From Geoalkalibacter subterraneus (lineage in GTDB: Bacteria; Desulfobacterota; Desulfuromonadia; Desulfuromonadales; Geoalkalibacteraceae), in assembly GCF_000827125.1 (NCBI RefSeq), contig NZ_CP010311.1, positions 2,418,001-2,482,000 on the forward strand: DNA of 64,000 nucleotides. Direction: 5' to 3'. Below, piece after piece: positions 11,557 through 28,498 of this stretch (position 1 is the first letter of the stretch; every line of letters begins with the position of its first letter). The position numbers and the translations under genes were made by a program. A model generated the notes under the pieces. The model was not told the DNA's origin. It was given only the letters and a program-made list of their open reading frames with translations, and ran no database searches.

Positions 11557-11629
11557 ACGCCCATAACGTTACCACCCCTCAAACAATCAAAGCAATGCGA
11601 GGCGGAACACACCGACGCCCCTGCCGGAT

Positions 11630-11697
11630 AAAAAAAATCCCCCGCTTTCGGAGGGGATGAAAGCGGGGGGATAAGGCCCGGGAGGGGACCGGGCCTT
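11630..11697 (-). terminator. Transcription terminator after the DASS transporter
   Basis: On the minus strand a CCCCCGCTTTC stem with its complement (11638-11671) is followed by eight T residues at 11637-11630, the usual intrinsic terminator. A second hairpin, GGCCCGG/CCGGGCC at 11675-11695, precedes it. It lies just downstream of the transporter stop at 11719. Confidence 0.85.
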
Positions 11698-11718
11698 TTG
11701 GAATGGGGAAGAATCAAG

Positions 11719-13464
11719 TTATTCGTGCACGGTCGCTGCCCAGTTTGGAATCTGGTCGAACACCACGTCGAAAACAGGAATGACCAGCAGGTAGGTCACC
11801 GCAACCGCAAAAACGATGCCGATGATGTTGAGCCCGAAGCCGCTGCGCGCCATCTGCGGAATCGTGACGTACCCCGAGCCGAAGACAATGGCGTTGGGAG
11901 GGGTCGCCACCGGCAGCATGAAGGCACAGGAGGCAGCGATGGCGGCAGGAACCACCAGCAGCAGGGGATTCTGACCGAGCCCCACTGCCACAGCCGACAG
12001 AATCGGCATAACCATAGCGGAAGTTGCCGTATTGGAGGTCATCTCAGTCAGGAAGATAATCAGCGCAGCGACCGCCAGCACCAGCACGATGATGGGTGCG
12101 TTTTCCAGCAAACCGACACGGGTTCCGATCCAGGTCGCAAGCCCCGTTTCCTTGAAGCCAGCCGCCAAAGCCAGGCCGCCGCCGAACAGAATCAGCACGC
12201 CCCAGGGCATCTTGACCGCCCAGTGCCAGTTCATGACAAACTCGTTTTTCTTCATGTTGATCGGAATCAGGAACAGAAGACAGGCACCGGTCATGGCAAT
12301 GGCCGCGTCGGTCACCAGAGCGGGATCCGGAAACAGAAACCCGAGTTGTTTGCGGAAAATCCAGGACAAAGCGGTCAGACCGAACACCAAAGCAGTCCAG
12401 CGCTCGCCGGTATTCATTGCCCCCATTTTTTTCAGCTCAGCGTTGATCAGATCGCGACCGCCGGGCACTTTTTTGAGTTTCATCGGGTTGGCCACCCGCG
12501 TCAACCACAGCCAGCACACAGGCAGCATGAACAGTACCAGCGGCACACCAACTTTCAGCCAGTCGGCAAAACTGATTTCAAAACCGTAGGTTTTCTGCAG
12601 GTAGCCGGCAAGAACCGTATTGGGCGGGGTGCCGATCAGGGTGGCGATGCCACCGATTGAGGCCGCATACGCGATCCCCAGCATCAGGTTGAGGCCGAAA
12701 GAAAATTTATCCGGGGAGAAATCGATTTCCTTGTCCAGCCCTTCTCTCTTCCCCTCTTCGACCACGTGAGCGATGATCGCCAGACCGATGGGCATCATCA
12801 TAACGGTGGTGGCGGTGTTGGAGACAAAGGCCGAGAGGGCCGCAGTCGCCACCATAAACCCGAAAATCAGGCGTGCTGGGGAGAATCCGACCGTTTTAAC
12901 GATGTTCATGGCGATGCGACGGTGCAGATCCCAGCGCTGCATGGACAGCGCAATGATAAAGCCACCCATGAACAAAAAGATCAGATGGCTGGCATAGGGC
13001 GCGGTCGCCTGCTTGGTATGCATGATACCTAGCAGGGGAAACAGCGCGATGGGCAGAAGACTCGTAGCTGGAATCGGAATCGACTCGCACATCCACCAGG
13101 CGGCCATCAGCAGCGCCACAGCGGCCATTTTCTGAGCGGCAGGCTCCATTTCAGTCGGCGTAGGCAGCAGCAGCATCAGCACAAAAAGAACCGGCCCCAA
13201 GATAAGACCGAAAAGCTGGCGCCGAGTGTATTCGCTGGGATCACCTTCTTCGACCCCGCCGGGTCCGGACTTCAACCGCCCGACATGCTCCGCCGGGGCT
13301 TCTTCAATTTCATCGGCCAGATCGACGTCGCTCTCCCGACGACCATTGCTGAATGCCAGGTGATCCTCTTTGAAACGCCGCAAAAGCGCCTGAGGCCGCA
13401 CCAGGCAGAGGGCCTTGGTTTCGTCGTGCATACGCCAGAGGCGATCCCACATGGTTGAAAGCAT
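11719..13464 (-). CDS. DASS/SLC13-family sodium:carboxylate (or sulfate) symporter
   Basis: 581 residues. A charged N-terminal extension of about 85 residues precedes about eleven hydrophobic segments. Family motifs are FVSNTATTVMMMPIG (first SNT substrate/sodium site), IGGIATLIGTPPNTVL, and in the second half LTEMTSNTATSAMVMPILSAVA (second SNT site) with MLPVATPPNAIVFGSG. It imports dicarboxylates or related anions with Na+. The ATG at 13464 follows AAGGAGAAGG. A sigma-54 promoter and two palindromes lie upstream, and an NtrC-type regulator with sensor kinase is encoded next door, the standard layout for C4-dicarboxylate uptake control. Confidence 0.88.
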   Translation of the reverse strand: MLSTMWDRLWRMHDETKALCLVRPQALLRRFKEDHLAFSNGRRESDVDLADEIEEAPAEHVGRLKSGPGGVEEGDPSEYTRRQLFGLILGPVLFVLMLLLPTPTEMEPAAQKMAAVALLMAAWWMCESIPIPATSLLPIALFPLLGIMHTKQATAPYASHLIFLFMGGFIIALSMQRWDLHRRIAMNIVKTVGFSPARLIFGFMVATAALSAFVSNTATTVMMMPIGLAIIAHVVEEGKREGLDKEIDFSPDKFSFGLNLMLGIAYAASIGGIATLIGTPPNTVLAGYLQKTYGFEISFADWLKVGVPLVLFMLPVCWLWLTRVANPMKLKKVPGGRDLINAELKKMGAMNTGERWTALVFGLTALSWIFRKQLGFLFPDPALVTDAAIAMTGACLLFLIPINMKKNEFVMNWHWAVKMPWGVLILFGGGLALAAGFKETGLATWIGTRVGLLENAPIIVLVLAVAALIIFLTEMTSNTATSAMVMPILSAVAVGLGQNPLLLVVPAAIAASCAFMLPVATPPNAIVFGSGYVTIPQMARSGFGLNIIGIVFAVAVTYLLVIPVFDVVFDQIPNWAATVHE

Positions 13465-13587
13465 CTTTCCTTCTCCTTCCAAGCAAATTGATAAAAATGC
13501 AGCACCTGAATTCTTGTGCCCCGTGGGGCTGTCCTGTCAAAAAACAACACGGAACACCAGGCGACAAAAAGACCGGTTTTGATTTTT

Positions 13588-24331: not shown

Positions 24332-24973
24332 ATGATCAAAGCGATTTTCTGGGACAACGACGGCATTCTTGTCGACACTGAGCCCCTTTATTTTCAGGCG
24401 ACGCGTGAAGTTCTGACTCGTCATAACGTTGAGCTTACAAGAGAAGAATTTATCCGCATCTCTCTTCAGCAAGGGCAAAGCGCCTTCGATCTGGCCAGGG
24501 ATCAGGGATATGAGCCTGCAGAACTTGAACAGATGAGACAGCAGCGAAACAGGCGCTACACCCAACTTCTCGAGGAAGGTGCCGAAGCACTGCCGCATGT
24601 CGAGGAAACACTGAAAGTTCTCTACGGACACTTCCGCATGGGAATCGTGACCAGCTCGCTGACGGAACACTTTAATGCCATCCATTCGCAAACCGGGCTT
24701 CTGCCGTTTTTTGAATTTACCCTGACCCGCGAGCAGTACGCGCAGACTAAACCCCACCCGGAGCCTTACCTCACTGCACTTTTGCGCTGCGATCTCTCAC
24801 CGCAGGAATGCATTGTCATCGAGGACAGTGAACGTGGTCTTGCCGCGGCCGTGGCCGCAGGGCTGCGTTGCATTGCAATCCCCACCGAACTCACCCGTGA
24901 TGGAGATTTTTCAAAGGCTTTTGCAGTTCTTGAAGACGTGCGTGATGTCCCATCCCTGTTAAACCGAATTTGA
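24332..24973 (+). CDS. HAD-superfamily phosphatase (phosphoglycolate phosphatase-like)
   Basis: A 213-residue HAD subclass IA enzyme. Motif I is DNDGILVDTEP (nucleophile Asp8; the second Asp is Asp10), motif II is VTSS, and motif III Lys and motif IV lie in KPHPEPYLTALLRC...VIEDSERGLAAAVAAG. The cap domain (about 16-95) is of the phosphoglucomutase/phosphoglycolate type. It probably dephosphorylates a small sugar phosphate; the substrate cannot be read. AAAGG lies 7 bases before the ATG. It is a single gene. Confidence 0.82.
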   Translation: MIKAIFWDNDGILVDTEPLYFQATREVLTRHNVELTREEFIRISLQQGQSAFDLARDQGYEPAELEQMRQQRNRRYTQLLEEGAEALPHVEETLKVLYGHFRMGIVTSSLTEHFNAIHSQTGLLPFFEFTLTREQYAQTKPHPEPYLTALLRCDLSPQECIVIEDSERGLAAAVAAGLRCIAIPTELTRDGDFSKAFAVLEDVRDVPSLLNRI

Positions 24974-25239: not shown

Positions 25240-26031
25240 ATGGCTTTCAAACCGGTCAGCGTATTTACCGAGTTTTTCACACCACCTGATCACTCAAAGA
25301 TCACCCGTGCGGGACAATCCACGAAAAGTTTTGAAAAACTTTTTGAAGAAACTGCGAGCCGCTCAGATATCACCCCGGCCCAGCAGGCCCGGGTGCTGGC
25401 TGAAACAGCAAGGCTGCGCATGATGGCAGGACTTTTCACCGACGATCCCAACGGATCAACCCAGCCTTTTATCCCGAATCTTGAAAATCTGCCCTCCGCA
25501 GCTGCTCACCATTACCGTGCTCGTGCTCAAGAGTATAAATCCGCGCACGCAGCCAACCCTGCAGTCGTAATCGCTTCGCGGGAGAAGGCCGCCGCGTTCT
25601 CGTCGCTGCCAGAGCACGAGATCAAACCGAACTCTGAGGAAATCGAGTCGTACATCAATAAAGCCTCCGCGCAATTCGGAGTCTCACCGCATTTGATCAA
25701 GGCCGTTATTCAGGCAGAAAGCAGCTTCGATCATCAGGCCGTTTCCCCGGCCGGCGCACAGGGGTTGATGCAGCTGATGCCTGCCACGGCAAGGGAACTG
25801 GGGGTCGACAACCCTTTTGATCCGGAACAGAACGTTATGGGCGGCACACGTTATCTCAAATCACTGCTCGACCGCTATGAGGGCGATCTGGACAAAGCCC
25901 TGGCCGCCTATAACTGGGGGATGGGCAACCTCGAACGAAATCCGGACGGTCTCCCCGCAGAAACCCGGAATTACCAATCCAAAGTAAAAACCTTTCTGGC
26001 CCAGGTGACTGAAAACAATCGCCGCGCCTGA
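25240..26031 (+). CDS. Lytic transglycosylase (SLT family)
   Basis: 263 residues. An N-terminal low-complexity region of about 130 residues without an obvious signal peptide is followed by a goose-type/Slt lysozyme domain. The catalytic Glu is in FGVSPHLIKAVIQAESSFDHQAVSPAGAQGLMQLMPATA, and NPFDPEQNVMGGTRYLKSLLDRYEGDLDKALAAYNWGMGN is the rest of the active cleft. It cleaves peptidoglycan to anhydromuramyl products. Absence of a signal peptide and the order N-terminal region plus SLT recall flagellar or secretion-apparatus muramidases, but no such genes are nearby. Confidence 0.85.
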   Translation: MAFKPVSVFTEFFTPPDHSKITRAGQSTKSFEKLFEETASRSDITPAQQARVLAETARLRMMAGLFTDDPNGSTQPFIPNLENLPSAAAHHYRARAQEYKSAHAANPAVVIASREKAAAFSSLPEHEIKPNSEEIESYINKASAQFGVSPHLIKAVIQAESSFDHQAVSPAGAQGLMQLMPATARELGVDNPFDPEQNVMGGTRYLKSLLDRYEGDLDKALAAYNWGMGNLERNPDGLPAETRNYQSKVKTFLAQVTENNRRA

Positions 26032-26142
26032 TCGCCAGTCACAACAGTTTGCTCCCCCCCTTTTTGCGTAAACATAATATTTTTAAGCTGTTATTAAAAA
26101 AAATTGGTTGCCAAAATCGCTTCGGTGAATTAGTATTGCGCC

Positions 26143-26212
26143 ATGTTTCCCGATCGGCATATCCGGTCGGGTTTTGCCCCGTGATTCCCCCTCCTTCACG
26201 GGGCATTTTTTT
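26143..26212 (+). ncRNA. Probable small RNA 1, C-rich terminator loop
   Basis: The promoter is TTGCCA (26108-26113), 17 bp, TAGTAT (26131-26136). The predicted transcript of about 70 nt has a first hairpin CCCGATCGG/CCGGTCGGG (26149-26171, one G-U pair, 5-base loop). The terminator hairpin is TGCCCCGTG/CACGGGGCA (26175-26205) plus seven T residues. The 13-base terminator loop ATTCCCCCTCCTT is complementary to Shine-Dalgarno sequence. There is no open frame with a start. Compare small RNA 2 just downstream. Confidence 0.6.
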
Positions 26213-26343
26213 ATCCTTCGCCACTCCTCCCAATTAAATTTCCCGCATTTTTCTACAACACTCTGAATACACAAACAACAATATCTATAGTTTTTAGCGA
26301 CTTTCGCCTTGACACTTCACGATCAAACCATTATTCTTAATTT

Positions 26344-26441
26344 CAACAAATTAAAGACCTCCGTTGTCAACCCATGGTTTCTTAAGAAATCATGCGGTTT
26401 TTTTGCCCCGTGTATCTCCTCCCTGGCACGGGGCGTTTTTT
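26344..26441 (+). ncRNA. Probable small RNA 2, CUCCUCCC terminator loop
   Basis: The promoter is TTGACA (26309-26314), 17 bp, TATTCT (26332-26337). The transcript is about 98 nt. Hairpin 1 is CATGGTTTC/GAAATCATG with loop TTAA (26373-26394). The terminator stem is GCCCCGTG/CACGGGGC (26405-26434) followed by T residues to 26441. The 14-base loop TATCTCCTCCCTGG contains CTCCTCCC. The stem is the same as in small RNA 1, so the two look like tandem paralogues. Such loops are known to bind ribosome sites in C-rich-loop sRNAs of other bacteria. Confidence 0.62.
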
Positions 26442-26572: not shown

Positions 26573-28498
26573 ATGTACAGTTTTTCCATTCGGACAAAAA
26601 TTCTGGCGCTCGGCATCATATTGCCATTGGTATTGGTTTCTCTGCTGTTTGGTCTTTTCTATTTTCATTCGGAAAGCACGGCCCTGGACGCTTTTATCGA
26701 CAAGGCACGCGCGATTTGCCTGACAGCCGAATCCACCCGTGAGGAGATGGAAGACAAGTGGGCCCAGGGGCTTTTCTCCCGCGAACAGTTGCGACAATGG
26801 ATGCAGAACGGAGAACAGCAGAAAATCATTGCCGCAGTTCCGGTTGTCTCGGCATGGCAGGCTGCCATGAAAAAATCGGAAGAAGGTGAGTACACGTTCC
26901 GTACCCCTAAATTCCAGCCGCGCAATCCTGCCAACCAGCCTGATCCTATGGAAGCTCGCGCACTGGAAGCGTTTCAACAGGGAGTCACCGAGTATTACGA
27001 AATCGATGAAACGCAGAATGCCGTGCGCTACTTCCGCCCGGTCGTCTTATCGCAGCCCTGCATGAACTGTCACGGCGATCCGGCCGACTCGCAAAAATAC
27101 TGGGGCAACGACAAGGGACTCGACCCCACCGGCGCGCGCATGGAGGGCTGGAAGGTCGGCGAAGTACACGGTGCATTCGAGGTGATCCAATCCCTGGACT
27201 CCGCTCAGGCCATGGTGGCCGGGGCCATGTTCAAAGGAGGGATGACAGTGCTGGCAGGGATGGCGGTCTATATCCTGCTGTTCGTCTTTTTCATCAGCCG
27301 CACTTTCATTCAACCGCTCAACCGTACTGTCGCCATGATTTCAGGTCTCGAAAGTGGAGATCTCGACCATCGCCTGAAAATGGCGCGCGAGGATGAAATC
27401 GGTACCCTCGCCGACAGCCTCGACCGGTTTGCCGACAACCTCAAGCATGAGGTTTTGACCGCTTTCCAGCGCCTGGCCGACGGAGATTTCACCTTTAAGG
27501 CCCAGGGGTTGATCGCCGAGCCGCTGGCCCGCGCCAATACCAGCCTGAATCAACTGGTCTCCGAACTTCAGCAGGTGGGGGAGCGCATCAACGGCCGCTC
27601 TGCAGAAGTTGCCGATTCAAGCCAGGCTTTATCGCAGGGAGCAACCGAACAGGCGGCATCCCTTGAAGAAATCAGTGCCTCCCTGCATGAATTGACGTCA
27701 CAAACCAAGAAAAATGCCGACAATGCCGGTCTCGCGGATCGACTGACCGGGCAGGTGCAAGGATCGGCGGAAAACGGCAATCAGCAGATGCAGCAGATGG
27801 TCGACGCCATGACCGATATCAATAATTCCGGGCAGAATATTTCGAAAATCATCAAAGTCATCGACGAGATCGCATTCCAGACCAACCTGCTGGCCCTCAA
27901 TGCCGCGGTGGAGGCTGCGCGTGCCGGCGTGCATGGTAAAGGGTTTGCTGTCGTAGCGGAAGAGGTGCGCAATCTCGCCGGCCGCAGCGCCAAGGCGGCA
28001 CGGGAAACAGCTGAATTAATTGAAGGCTCCCTCGCCAAGGCAAAGAACGGCGCAGAGATCGCTGAACATACAGCGGAGGCCTTGAAAGAGATCGTCCAGG
28101 GAATCGGCAAAATCACCGATCTCGCCGGCGAAATCGCCACAGCCAGCAACGAGCAGGCGGAAGGGATCGACCAGATCAATATCGGCATTTCGCAGATCGA
28201 TCAGGTGACGCAGCAGAATACGGCCACGGCCGAAGAAAGTGCCGCGGCGGCAGAAGATCTTTCCGGACAGGCTGTGCGTCTGCACACCATGCTGTCACGC
28301 TTCAAGCTCGATAGCGCCCGGCCCCTTGCTCCGCAGCACACCGCAACACCGGCCCGGCGGCCATCCCATCCACCGGAGACAAGTGCCGCGCCCCAAAAGG
28401 GCGAAACGGTAAAAAAGGAGGAATGGGGGAGATCGGGCACATCATGCAGTCCCCCGGAAATGATTGCCCTGGATGATGATGAATTTGGCCGCTATTAA
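26573..28498 (+). CDS. Heme-c methyl-accepting chemotaxis protein (DUF3365 sensor)
   Basis: 641 residues. Membrane segment 1 is at about 8-30, then a periplasmic DUF3365/Tll0287-like domain with one c-type heme motif CMNCH (163-167), membrane segment 2 ([17 protein letters not shown], near 220-245), HAMP, and a cytoplasmic signalling coiled coil with the conserved tip [23 protein letters not shown]. The C-terminus has a Pro/Ala-rich tail and no obvious methylation-enzyme tether. It probably senses redox potential or a small ligand at the heme and steers motility. The start at 26573 follows GGAG. Its sensor type matches that of the kinase at 29897-31480. Confidence 0.88.

Follow-up and report, generated by a model that had tools for sequence, protein, structure and literature searches.

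The locus at 26108-26441 of the window comprises two tandem units which we read, with a probability of roughly 0.7 for the whole explanation, as sibling small RNAs, one of about 70 nt and the other of about 98 nt, each with its own transcript, that would occlude Shine-Dalgarno (SD) sequences by means of the terminator loop. Transcription is inferred. The window is the whole stretch of 64,000 nucleotides analysed here, from Geoalkalibacter subterraneus (contig NZ_CP010311.1, positions 2,418,001 to 2,482,000). Unit 1 would belong to a family spread over the order and unit 2 would be a sibling type found in the organism's own family. The elements are the following.

26108-26113 and 26131-26136, + strand: promoter-like boxes of unit 1, TTGCCA and TAGTAT, 17 bp apart, 9/12 of the consensus
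26142-26212, + strand: unit 1 (type A), predicted small RNA of about 70 nt, the T-tract included, with a probable start at 26142
26149-26171, + strand: first hairpin (SL1) of unit 1, 9-bp stem
26175-26205, + strand: terminator hairpin of unit 1, 10 pairs, followed by T7 at 26206-26212
26188-26196, + strand: C-rich, anti-SD-like loop core of unit 1, CCCCTCCTT
26309-26314 and 26332-26337, + strand: promoter-like boxes of unit 2, TTGACA and TATTCT, 17 bp apart, 10/12 of the consensus
26344-26441, + strand: unit 2 (type B), predicted small RNA of about 98 nt, proposed from its fold and from type B in the family
26357-26362, + strand: second anti-SD-like motif of unit 2, ACCTCC, close to the 5' end and within or next to a weak helix of 3 bp
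26369-26399, + strand: first hairpin (SL1) of unit 2, from the fold
26405-26434, + strand: terminator hairpin of unit 2, T-tract at 26436-26441
26416-26426, + strand: C-rich, anti-SD-like loop of unit 2, CTCCTCCCTGG

The initial annotation had described here two units, each with boxes at 17-bp spacing, a first hairpin, a nearly identical terminator stem and a C-rich loop, and all these elements were recovered as quoted. When the 110 bases upstream of each unit were shuffled 60 times, the score of the unit 1 boxes was equalled once and that of unit 2 never, although such boxes alone are weak evidence, with 3 found against 1.0 expected in 1.1 kb. The starts of both units were inferred from the -10 boxes. 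The terminator stem GCCCCGTG/CACGGGGC, at 26176-26204 and 26405-26434, encloses large loops of 11-12 nt in both units. The pattern GCCCCGTG-N8-20-CACGGGGC was identified exactly twice in the window, at the two units, and in none of 100 dinucleotide shuffles, and CCCCGTG-N8-16-CACGGGG is present only at these two places in the whole 3.72-Mb genome. Folding gave -34.9 kcal/mol for unit 1 (z -6.6) and -32.6 kcal/mol for unit 2 (z -4.4), none of 200 shuffles being as stable in either case. Another CTCCTCCC lies at 26224-26231, just past the unit 1 terminator and outside the reported hairpins, possibly by chance.

Large C-rich terminator loops are uncommon, not unique, in this genome. The window and 20 sampled stretches (464 kb, both strands) contain 71 terminator-like hairpins, five of them with CCTCC, CTCCT or CTCCC in the loop, including units 1 and 2. 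Loops of at least 8 nt were identified in 29 of the 71, nine of these with at least five C.

The distribution of the type-A unit is centred on the order. A DNA search with a 351-bp stretch gave matches in 19 of 40 genomes, own genome counted. The search for relatives proposed in the initial annotation was carried out with model R1, built from 17 type-A units with base pairs given for the terminator only; its 79.6 bits on unit 1 follow by construction, this unit being itself in the model. At E <= 1e-7 type A was identified in 33 of 121 genomes of the order, belonging to 12 families, and 17 of the 33 had not been used for the model. The other 88 genomes had no type-A match at this threshold, including G003 of the same family as the window. 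A phylum-wide draw at E <= 1e-5 gave matches in 8 of 395 genomes, all in the order. At E <= 1e-3 the model matched 87 of 248 genomes of the class, a count which includes weak matches, some of them probably plain GC-rich terminators. Twenty stretches were read by script, and two of them, L140 and L152, had no CTCC in the terminator loop. Six named genomes, relatives fetched by the neighbouring chemotaxis gene, were also searched at E <= 0.001. Three were matched, strongly in Geothermobacter hydrogeniphilus and weakly in Desulfuromusa sp. BB21 and a Desulfuromonadales MAG (L047); Malonomonas rubra, another Desulfuromonadales MAG (L036) and Desulfonema magnum gave no match. Two stretches from the same class outside the order, L154 (G133) and L156 (G164), presented weak R1 matches with a similar hairpin and loops TAACCCTCCT and CGGTACCTCCCC, and by these the type-A family may reach beyond the order.

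The relatives contain one to three tandem units of four loop types. Type A, the window's unit 1, has the loop CCCCTCCTT. Type B, the window's unit 2, has the loop CTCCTCCCTGG and was identified in all six genomes of family f1, with ATCTCCTCCCTGG identical in the six copies. Type C, whose loop is shorter and centred on CTCCC, occupies the position between A and B in 4 of the 6 f1 genomes. Type D has the loop CCCCCCCTCC; among the 34 genomes whose type-A unit was read, 15 have it upstream of that unit. The window contains only types A and B, and G003 gave C and B with no A. The pair of the initial annotation is therefore present in the window, but it is not a fixed pair, since relatives have one, two or three units of the four loop types. 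Its proposal of two small RNA genes gains support from this comparison, and the units in tandem are most likely sibling small RNAs.

Further hairpins were observed in two other settings. In family f8, which includes Desulfuromusa (G074), related hairpins are scattered, with as many as four sites in one genome (G069) and loops such as CCCCTCCT. An ACCTCC or ACCTCTC stretch precedes the terminator in 9 of 12 f8 stretches read, and most of the related hairpins in L140, L142-L145, L147, L149, L150 and L153 are preceded by GTTGTGGCAG. These are perhaps a dispersed sub-family with two anti-SD sites. In L024 (G016), from a genome with types A and D, a second and separate hairpin presented the loop CTCCCTCC.

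Conservation was measured on 34 type-A copies from 34 genomes, 17 of them model units and 17 found with the model, a sample which is not unbiased. Per-column conservation is 94-96% in the terminator stem, 91% in the loop core and 53% in the 5' part. CCCCTCCTT is present in 33 of the 34 copies and CTCCTT in the terminator loop of all of them. The pairs of the terminator are kept in 99.7% of cells over 33 distinct sequences. Stem changes that pair, which the initial annotation had suggested looking for, were found as both-sided changes at 2 of the 9 pairs, while 6 of the 9 never vary and are hence uninformative on pairing. The pattern is the reverse of varying loops between conserved flanks: loop and terminator stem are conserved and the rest varies.

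The first hairpin has unrelated sequences between families, its fold being kept in most. With 60 single-letter shuffles for each copy, z was -2 or lower in 26 of the 34 copies of type A, in all six of type B and in 10 of the 15 of type D. The type-A exceptions are L004, L005, L018, L128, L132, L133, L137 and L139, some of which are due to an automatic promoter choice that misplaced the stretch. No convincing first hairpin was identified in the five type-C copies (z -0.6, -2.0, -0.3, 0.9 and 0.5), so this element, missing or weak in type C, is not universal. Arm swaps, made for 22 type-A copies out of the 34, lowered the stability: the mean was -14.3 kcal/mol for native arms and -8.8 for arms joined across families, a loss of 5.5 kcal/mol. 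Even so, 8% of the swaps were as stable as the average native pair, and only 10 of the 22 copies folded best with their own partner arm. The distance from the end of the promoter-like boxes to the stem is 34-48 nt in 26 of the 34 copies of type A. Their score is at least 9/12 in 13 of 34 copies of type A, 5 of 15 of type D, 6 of 6 of type B and 5 of 5 of type C.

T-tracts were counted after the stem on each strand. The + strand has on average 7.4, 7.2 and 6.8 T of 9 in types A (34 copies), B (6) and D (12 of 15), and the - strand 1.8, 0.5 and 1.5 respectively, which assigns the RNA to the + strand. Together with the conservation pattern this looks like a + strand RNA gene, with selection on loop and terminator and not on flanks; the locus is conserved and probably encodes a functional RNA.

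Function on the opposite strand was considered and is very improbable. There the loops read AAGGAGGGGGAAT and CCAGGGAGGAGATA, with GGA exposed in hairpin loops as in CsrA-titrating RNAs. GGA in hairpin loops is the CsrA-binding motif, and the complement of any anti-SD loop necessarily contains it. Against this reading, the T-tracts of types A, B and D follow the stems on the + strand only, and SL1 is stabler on this strand in 20 of 34 type-A (a weak preference), 5 of 6 type-B and 11 of 12 type-D copies. Hardly credible is a leaderless micro-ORF starting at the ATG at 26143, near the start of unit 1, with a 13-codon frame ending in the terminator. Its TGA in the terminator stem is common to the window, L002, L003, L013, L014 and L120, but among the 34 copies of type A only these six share it; in 8 the ATG is lacking, and the frames of the others comprise 1 to 146 residues with differing ends.

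The units are located between a lytic transglycosylase gene (25240-26031) and a chemotaxis receptor gene, listed from 26489 and with a likelier start near 26574. Among 35 loci compared, the next gene downstream is DUF255-like in 15 (one checked with Pfam), and in 5 the gene directly upstream is a HAD hydrolase gene like the one at 24332-24973 of the window (one checked with Pfam). In family f18 the unit is at a different genomic place. The arrangement points to vertical inheritance of an old locus that has been rearranged locally. The neighbouring genes are no direct clue to the function of the units. Cobalamin riboswitches were observed a few hundred bases from the type-A unit in two f18 genomes (L019:1181-1362, - strand, and L128:1764-1955, + strand).

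The same surroundings bear on a further alternative, that the hairpins are ordinary intrinsic terminators of the flanking genes, ending the transglycosylase transcript or stopping transcripts that run on towards the chemotaxis gene, and that they produce no RNA themselves. In favour of this, both hairpins end in T-tracts, and in the five type-A genomes of f1 the unit 1 stem lies 125-153 bp past the upstream reading frame. It fits poorly, however, with a second terminator 200 bp from the first and with the promoter-like boxes and additional hairpin that accompany each of them. In other families the type-A unit recurs beside unrelated genes and in either orientation. Terminator loops are normally without sequence constraint, whereas the loop core here is conserved over 12 families, and we consider plain terminators quite unlikely. 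The leaderless peptide, the minus-strand CsrA sponge and the plain terminator were rejected on frames, T-tracts, neighbours and loop conservation.

For the two sibling small RNAs the following mechanism is proposed. The first hairpin is probably a stabiliser or a spacer, and the large loop of the intrinsic terminator would expose CCCCTCCTT or CTCCTCCCTGG and double as a seed, pairing with the purine-rich SD of putative target mRNAs. Such pairing would cover the ribosome-binding site (RBS), block 30S binding and lower translation, perhaps speeding up decay, and the differing loops of the siblings would lead to overlapping, non-identical sets of targets. A chaperone may take part, and an Hfq gene is encoded in the genome. 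The type-A loop contains CCTCCTT, which we take to be the core of the 16S 3' tail (CCUCCUU); a search for the genome's own 16S returned no match, and the assumed tail was used in the loop-energy comparison. The type-B loop contains CTCCTCC, and both loops are complementary to SD sequences.

Exact 9- or 10-nt loop complements followed by ATG 3-12 bases on were counted in six genomes of the family. AGGGAGGAG..ATG was found 44 times (two places counted twice) against 10 for the reversed-pattern control, and GAAGGAGGGG..ATG 16 times against 2. This excess of 4 to 8 times is partly trivial, being expected of SDs for any anti-SD-like string. Energies were compared at 306 sampled start regions, whose start choice used SD strength. 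The unit 1 loop was no better there than its own shuffles (-9.15 against a mean of -9.06), the unit 2 loop was modestly better (-11.05 against -10.04, sd 0.43), and the energies of the two loops correlate at 0.74.

Unit 1 could also be a global translation damper, its loop being so close to the 16S tail core that it would pair with SDs at large and have no regulon. Such a damper is unlikely: the presumed identity of loop core and tail core agrees with it, as does the finding for unit 1 of no sequence specificity beyond C-richness, but the extra conserved C residues and the differing sibling loops suggest discrimination, and a very high copy number would be needed.

Candidate targets of the sibling RNAs were screened for recurrence. 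The 60 pattern matches (44 and 16) correspond to 46 loci, with loci for only 30 of the 44; two double-counted loci were dropped, and the 44 screened gave 29 proteins of at least 35 residues. Only two orthologue pairs recurred in these 44 loci, both between the close genomes G004 and G005. Among the genes with a perfect match are those for a cytochrome b561-type subunit, an iron-sulfur subunit, an MFS transporter and two proteins resembling multi-haem cytochromes. They might hint at respiration, but such genes are probably abundant in these genomes. The best unit 2 match among the 306 sampled starts is the cytochrome b561-type gene. At its site, CAGGGAGG(AG), the match extends over 10 nt in G000, 9 in G003 and 8 in G004; G001 has AGGGAGGA there, and G002 has lost the match, which is thereby largely retained in G001, G003 and G004. 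The partial copy of G005 was left out, and second copies are mixed. As read here, the site runs into the 3' end of the preceding reading frame, and coding constraint may explain its retention.

Rfam at curated cut-offs identified nothing in the window, and no family reaches its gathering score at the units. The best matches below threshold are ar14, anti-hemB and RF02278, small RNAs of like mechanism or architecture, and the lower ones on the units are unrelated cis-elements (atoC, PyrR).

NfeR1 / alpha-r14 (RF02344), from Rhizobiales, is described as carrying the anti-SD motif CCUCCUCCC in unpaired loops of divergent stems and as silencing mRNAs by RBS pairing (PMC10746234, PMC3927594). The motif in unpaired loops is shared, and unit 2 aligns with its loop AUCUCCUCCC on ACCUCCUCCC. 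The alpha-r14 RNA has three hairpins, all with the motif, whereas the units have two main hairpins and the motif in the terminator loop only, plus the 5' ACCTCC in unit 2. Scores are 27.0 bits for unit 2 and 19.0 for unit 1, the gathering score being 58.8.

The cuckoo RNAs CcsR1-4 of Rhodobacter, to which the initial annotation had likened the units, share with them the organization as a cluster of homologous small RNAs. The hairpin loops of CcsR are CU-rich; in the units the CU-rich loop is located in the terminator hairpin and not in the first hairpins. CcsR1-4 are cut by RNase E from one RpoH-driven transcript that includes a DUF1127 gene (PMC10253847), whereas each unit has its own sigma-70-like promoter-like boxes. 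DUF1127 (PF06568) gave 0 matches in the own genome, the control having matched in 1 of 14 genomes. The likeness holds for the proposed mechanism only, and does not extend to the DUF1127 partner, a CU-rich loop in the first hairpin or the Rfam cut-off.

The Burkholderia family RF02278 (ncS03/05/27/62) is described as short two-hairpin RNAs with several homologues per genome and CU-rich unpaired stretches complementary to the RBS (PMC5688073). Two hairpins, the second one a terminator, are shared by both units and by most A, B and D relatives, with the exception of type C. The RF02278 consensus has its CU-rich stretch in the 5' end and the first hairpin, and the units have it in the terminator loop; the score is 23.7 bits, below the gathering score of 50. 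RF02278 RNAs are also classed as toxic, inhibiting growth when overexpressed. In Neisseria, NmsRA/NmsRB and NgncR_162/163 are tandem homologous small RNAs with CU-rich unpaired stretches against the RBS (PMC5688073, PMC5362039, PMC9973317). They share the tandem pair and the CU-rich stretches, belong to a different phylum and are likened by description only. C-rich hairpin loops acting on G-rich motifs near starts are described for sX13 (RF02232), which is Hfq-independent (PMC3771888), and for the actinobacterial 6C/B11 (B11: PMC10470900). There are three such loops in sX13 and two in B11, and in the units it is the terminator loop; sX13 scores 16.7 bits on unit 1 and 14.2 on unit 2, with a gathering score of 50.

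Anti-hemB (RF02837, Burkholderia RNA 7) reached 23.9 bits in the window and 36.2 in the best relative, below the cut-off of 49.5. In 14 loci of relatives (12 with type A) it was identified on nine, at the type-A unit in eight and at a C/B stretch in L002; the rest of the Rfam matches at E <= 0.1 in these loci comprised a tRNA, one stray match and two cobalamin riboswitches. Anti-hemB and the units have in common a CCCG-type terminator stem and two hairpins of about the same size, but the consensus terminator loop of anti-hemB is U-rich and that of the units C-rich. From the alignment, the match thus rests on the two-hairpin architecture and the stem, not on the loop.

The units fall below the Rfam cut-offs and differ in several of the features checked, and for these reasons they are filed as a new family of the CU-rich anti-SD kind and not as a member of a named one. 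Small RNAs (PMC6013743) and riboswitch candidates (PMC11109978) are reported from Geobacter, neither source describing the present RNA in the passages available. The literature matches listed, from open-licence papers and few searches naming this group, include no description of these units. Precedents for the proposed mechanism are sX13 (PMC3771888) and NfeR1 (PMC10746234), examined with loop or seed mutants, and the Burkholderia double-hairpin RNAs, examined by overexpression and silencing (PMC5688073). By analogy, the anti-SD mechanism of the units is plausible.

Other C-rich hairpins were observed in the same genome. On the - strand of the window, 11629-11704 comprises two adjacent hairpins with the C-rich loops TCCCCTC and ATCCCCTCC, ending in T8, just downstream of a transporter-like gene (ORF 11719-13482, - strand, identity by reading). 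Its fold has a z of -6.1, R1 gives 22.6 bits, and the Rfam matches below threshold are suhB/mmgR, sX13 and anti-hemB. This is a possible 3'UTR-type anti-SD double-hairpin RNA, in some ways nearer to the cuckoo design than the pair. At L173:677-740 (own genome, C1 about 2730677-2730740, + strand) there is a terminator with the loop CACCTCCT and a 13-bp stem.

The kind of mechanism is known, and the family, its spread over the order, the conservation centred on the loop and the sibling loop types appear to be new. A wider reading, rather unlikely, is that of a widespread sibling array at one old locus (HAD gene, units, DUF255 gene in many relatives) with the terminator loop as seed, where at least four SD-reading loops (CCCCTCCTT, CTCCTCCCTGG, ACCTCCCTG and CCCCCCCTCCG) would form an RBS code tuning respiration genes. 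If true, the type-A loop would be a near copy of the 16S tail and mRNAs would be ranked by the exact letters of their SD. The CU-rich anti-SD small RNAs known so far are mainly those of actinobacteria, Gram-positives and the alpha-, beta- and gammaproteobacteria. If the order with Geothermobacter and Desulfuromusa has a conserved family of them that Rfam lacks, this would mean a wider origin or persistence of the same solution. The natural loop variants of the family would be a ready set to ask how an SD-reading RNA gains specificity.
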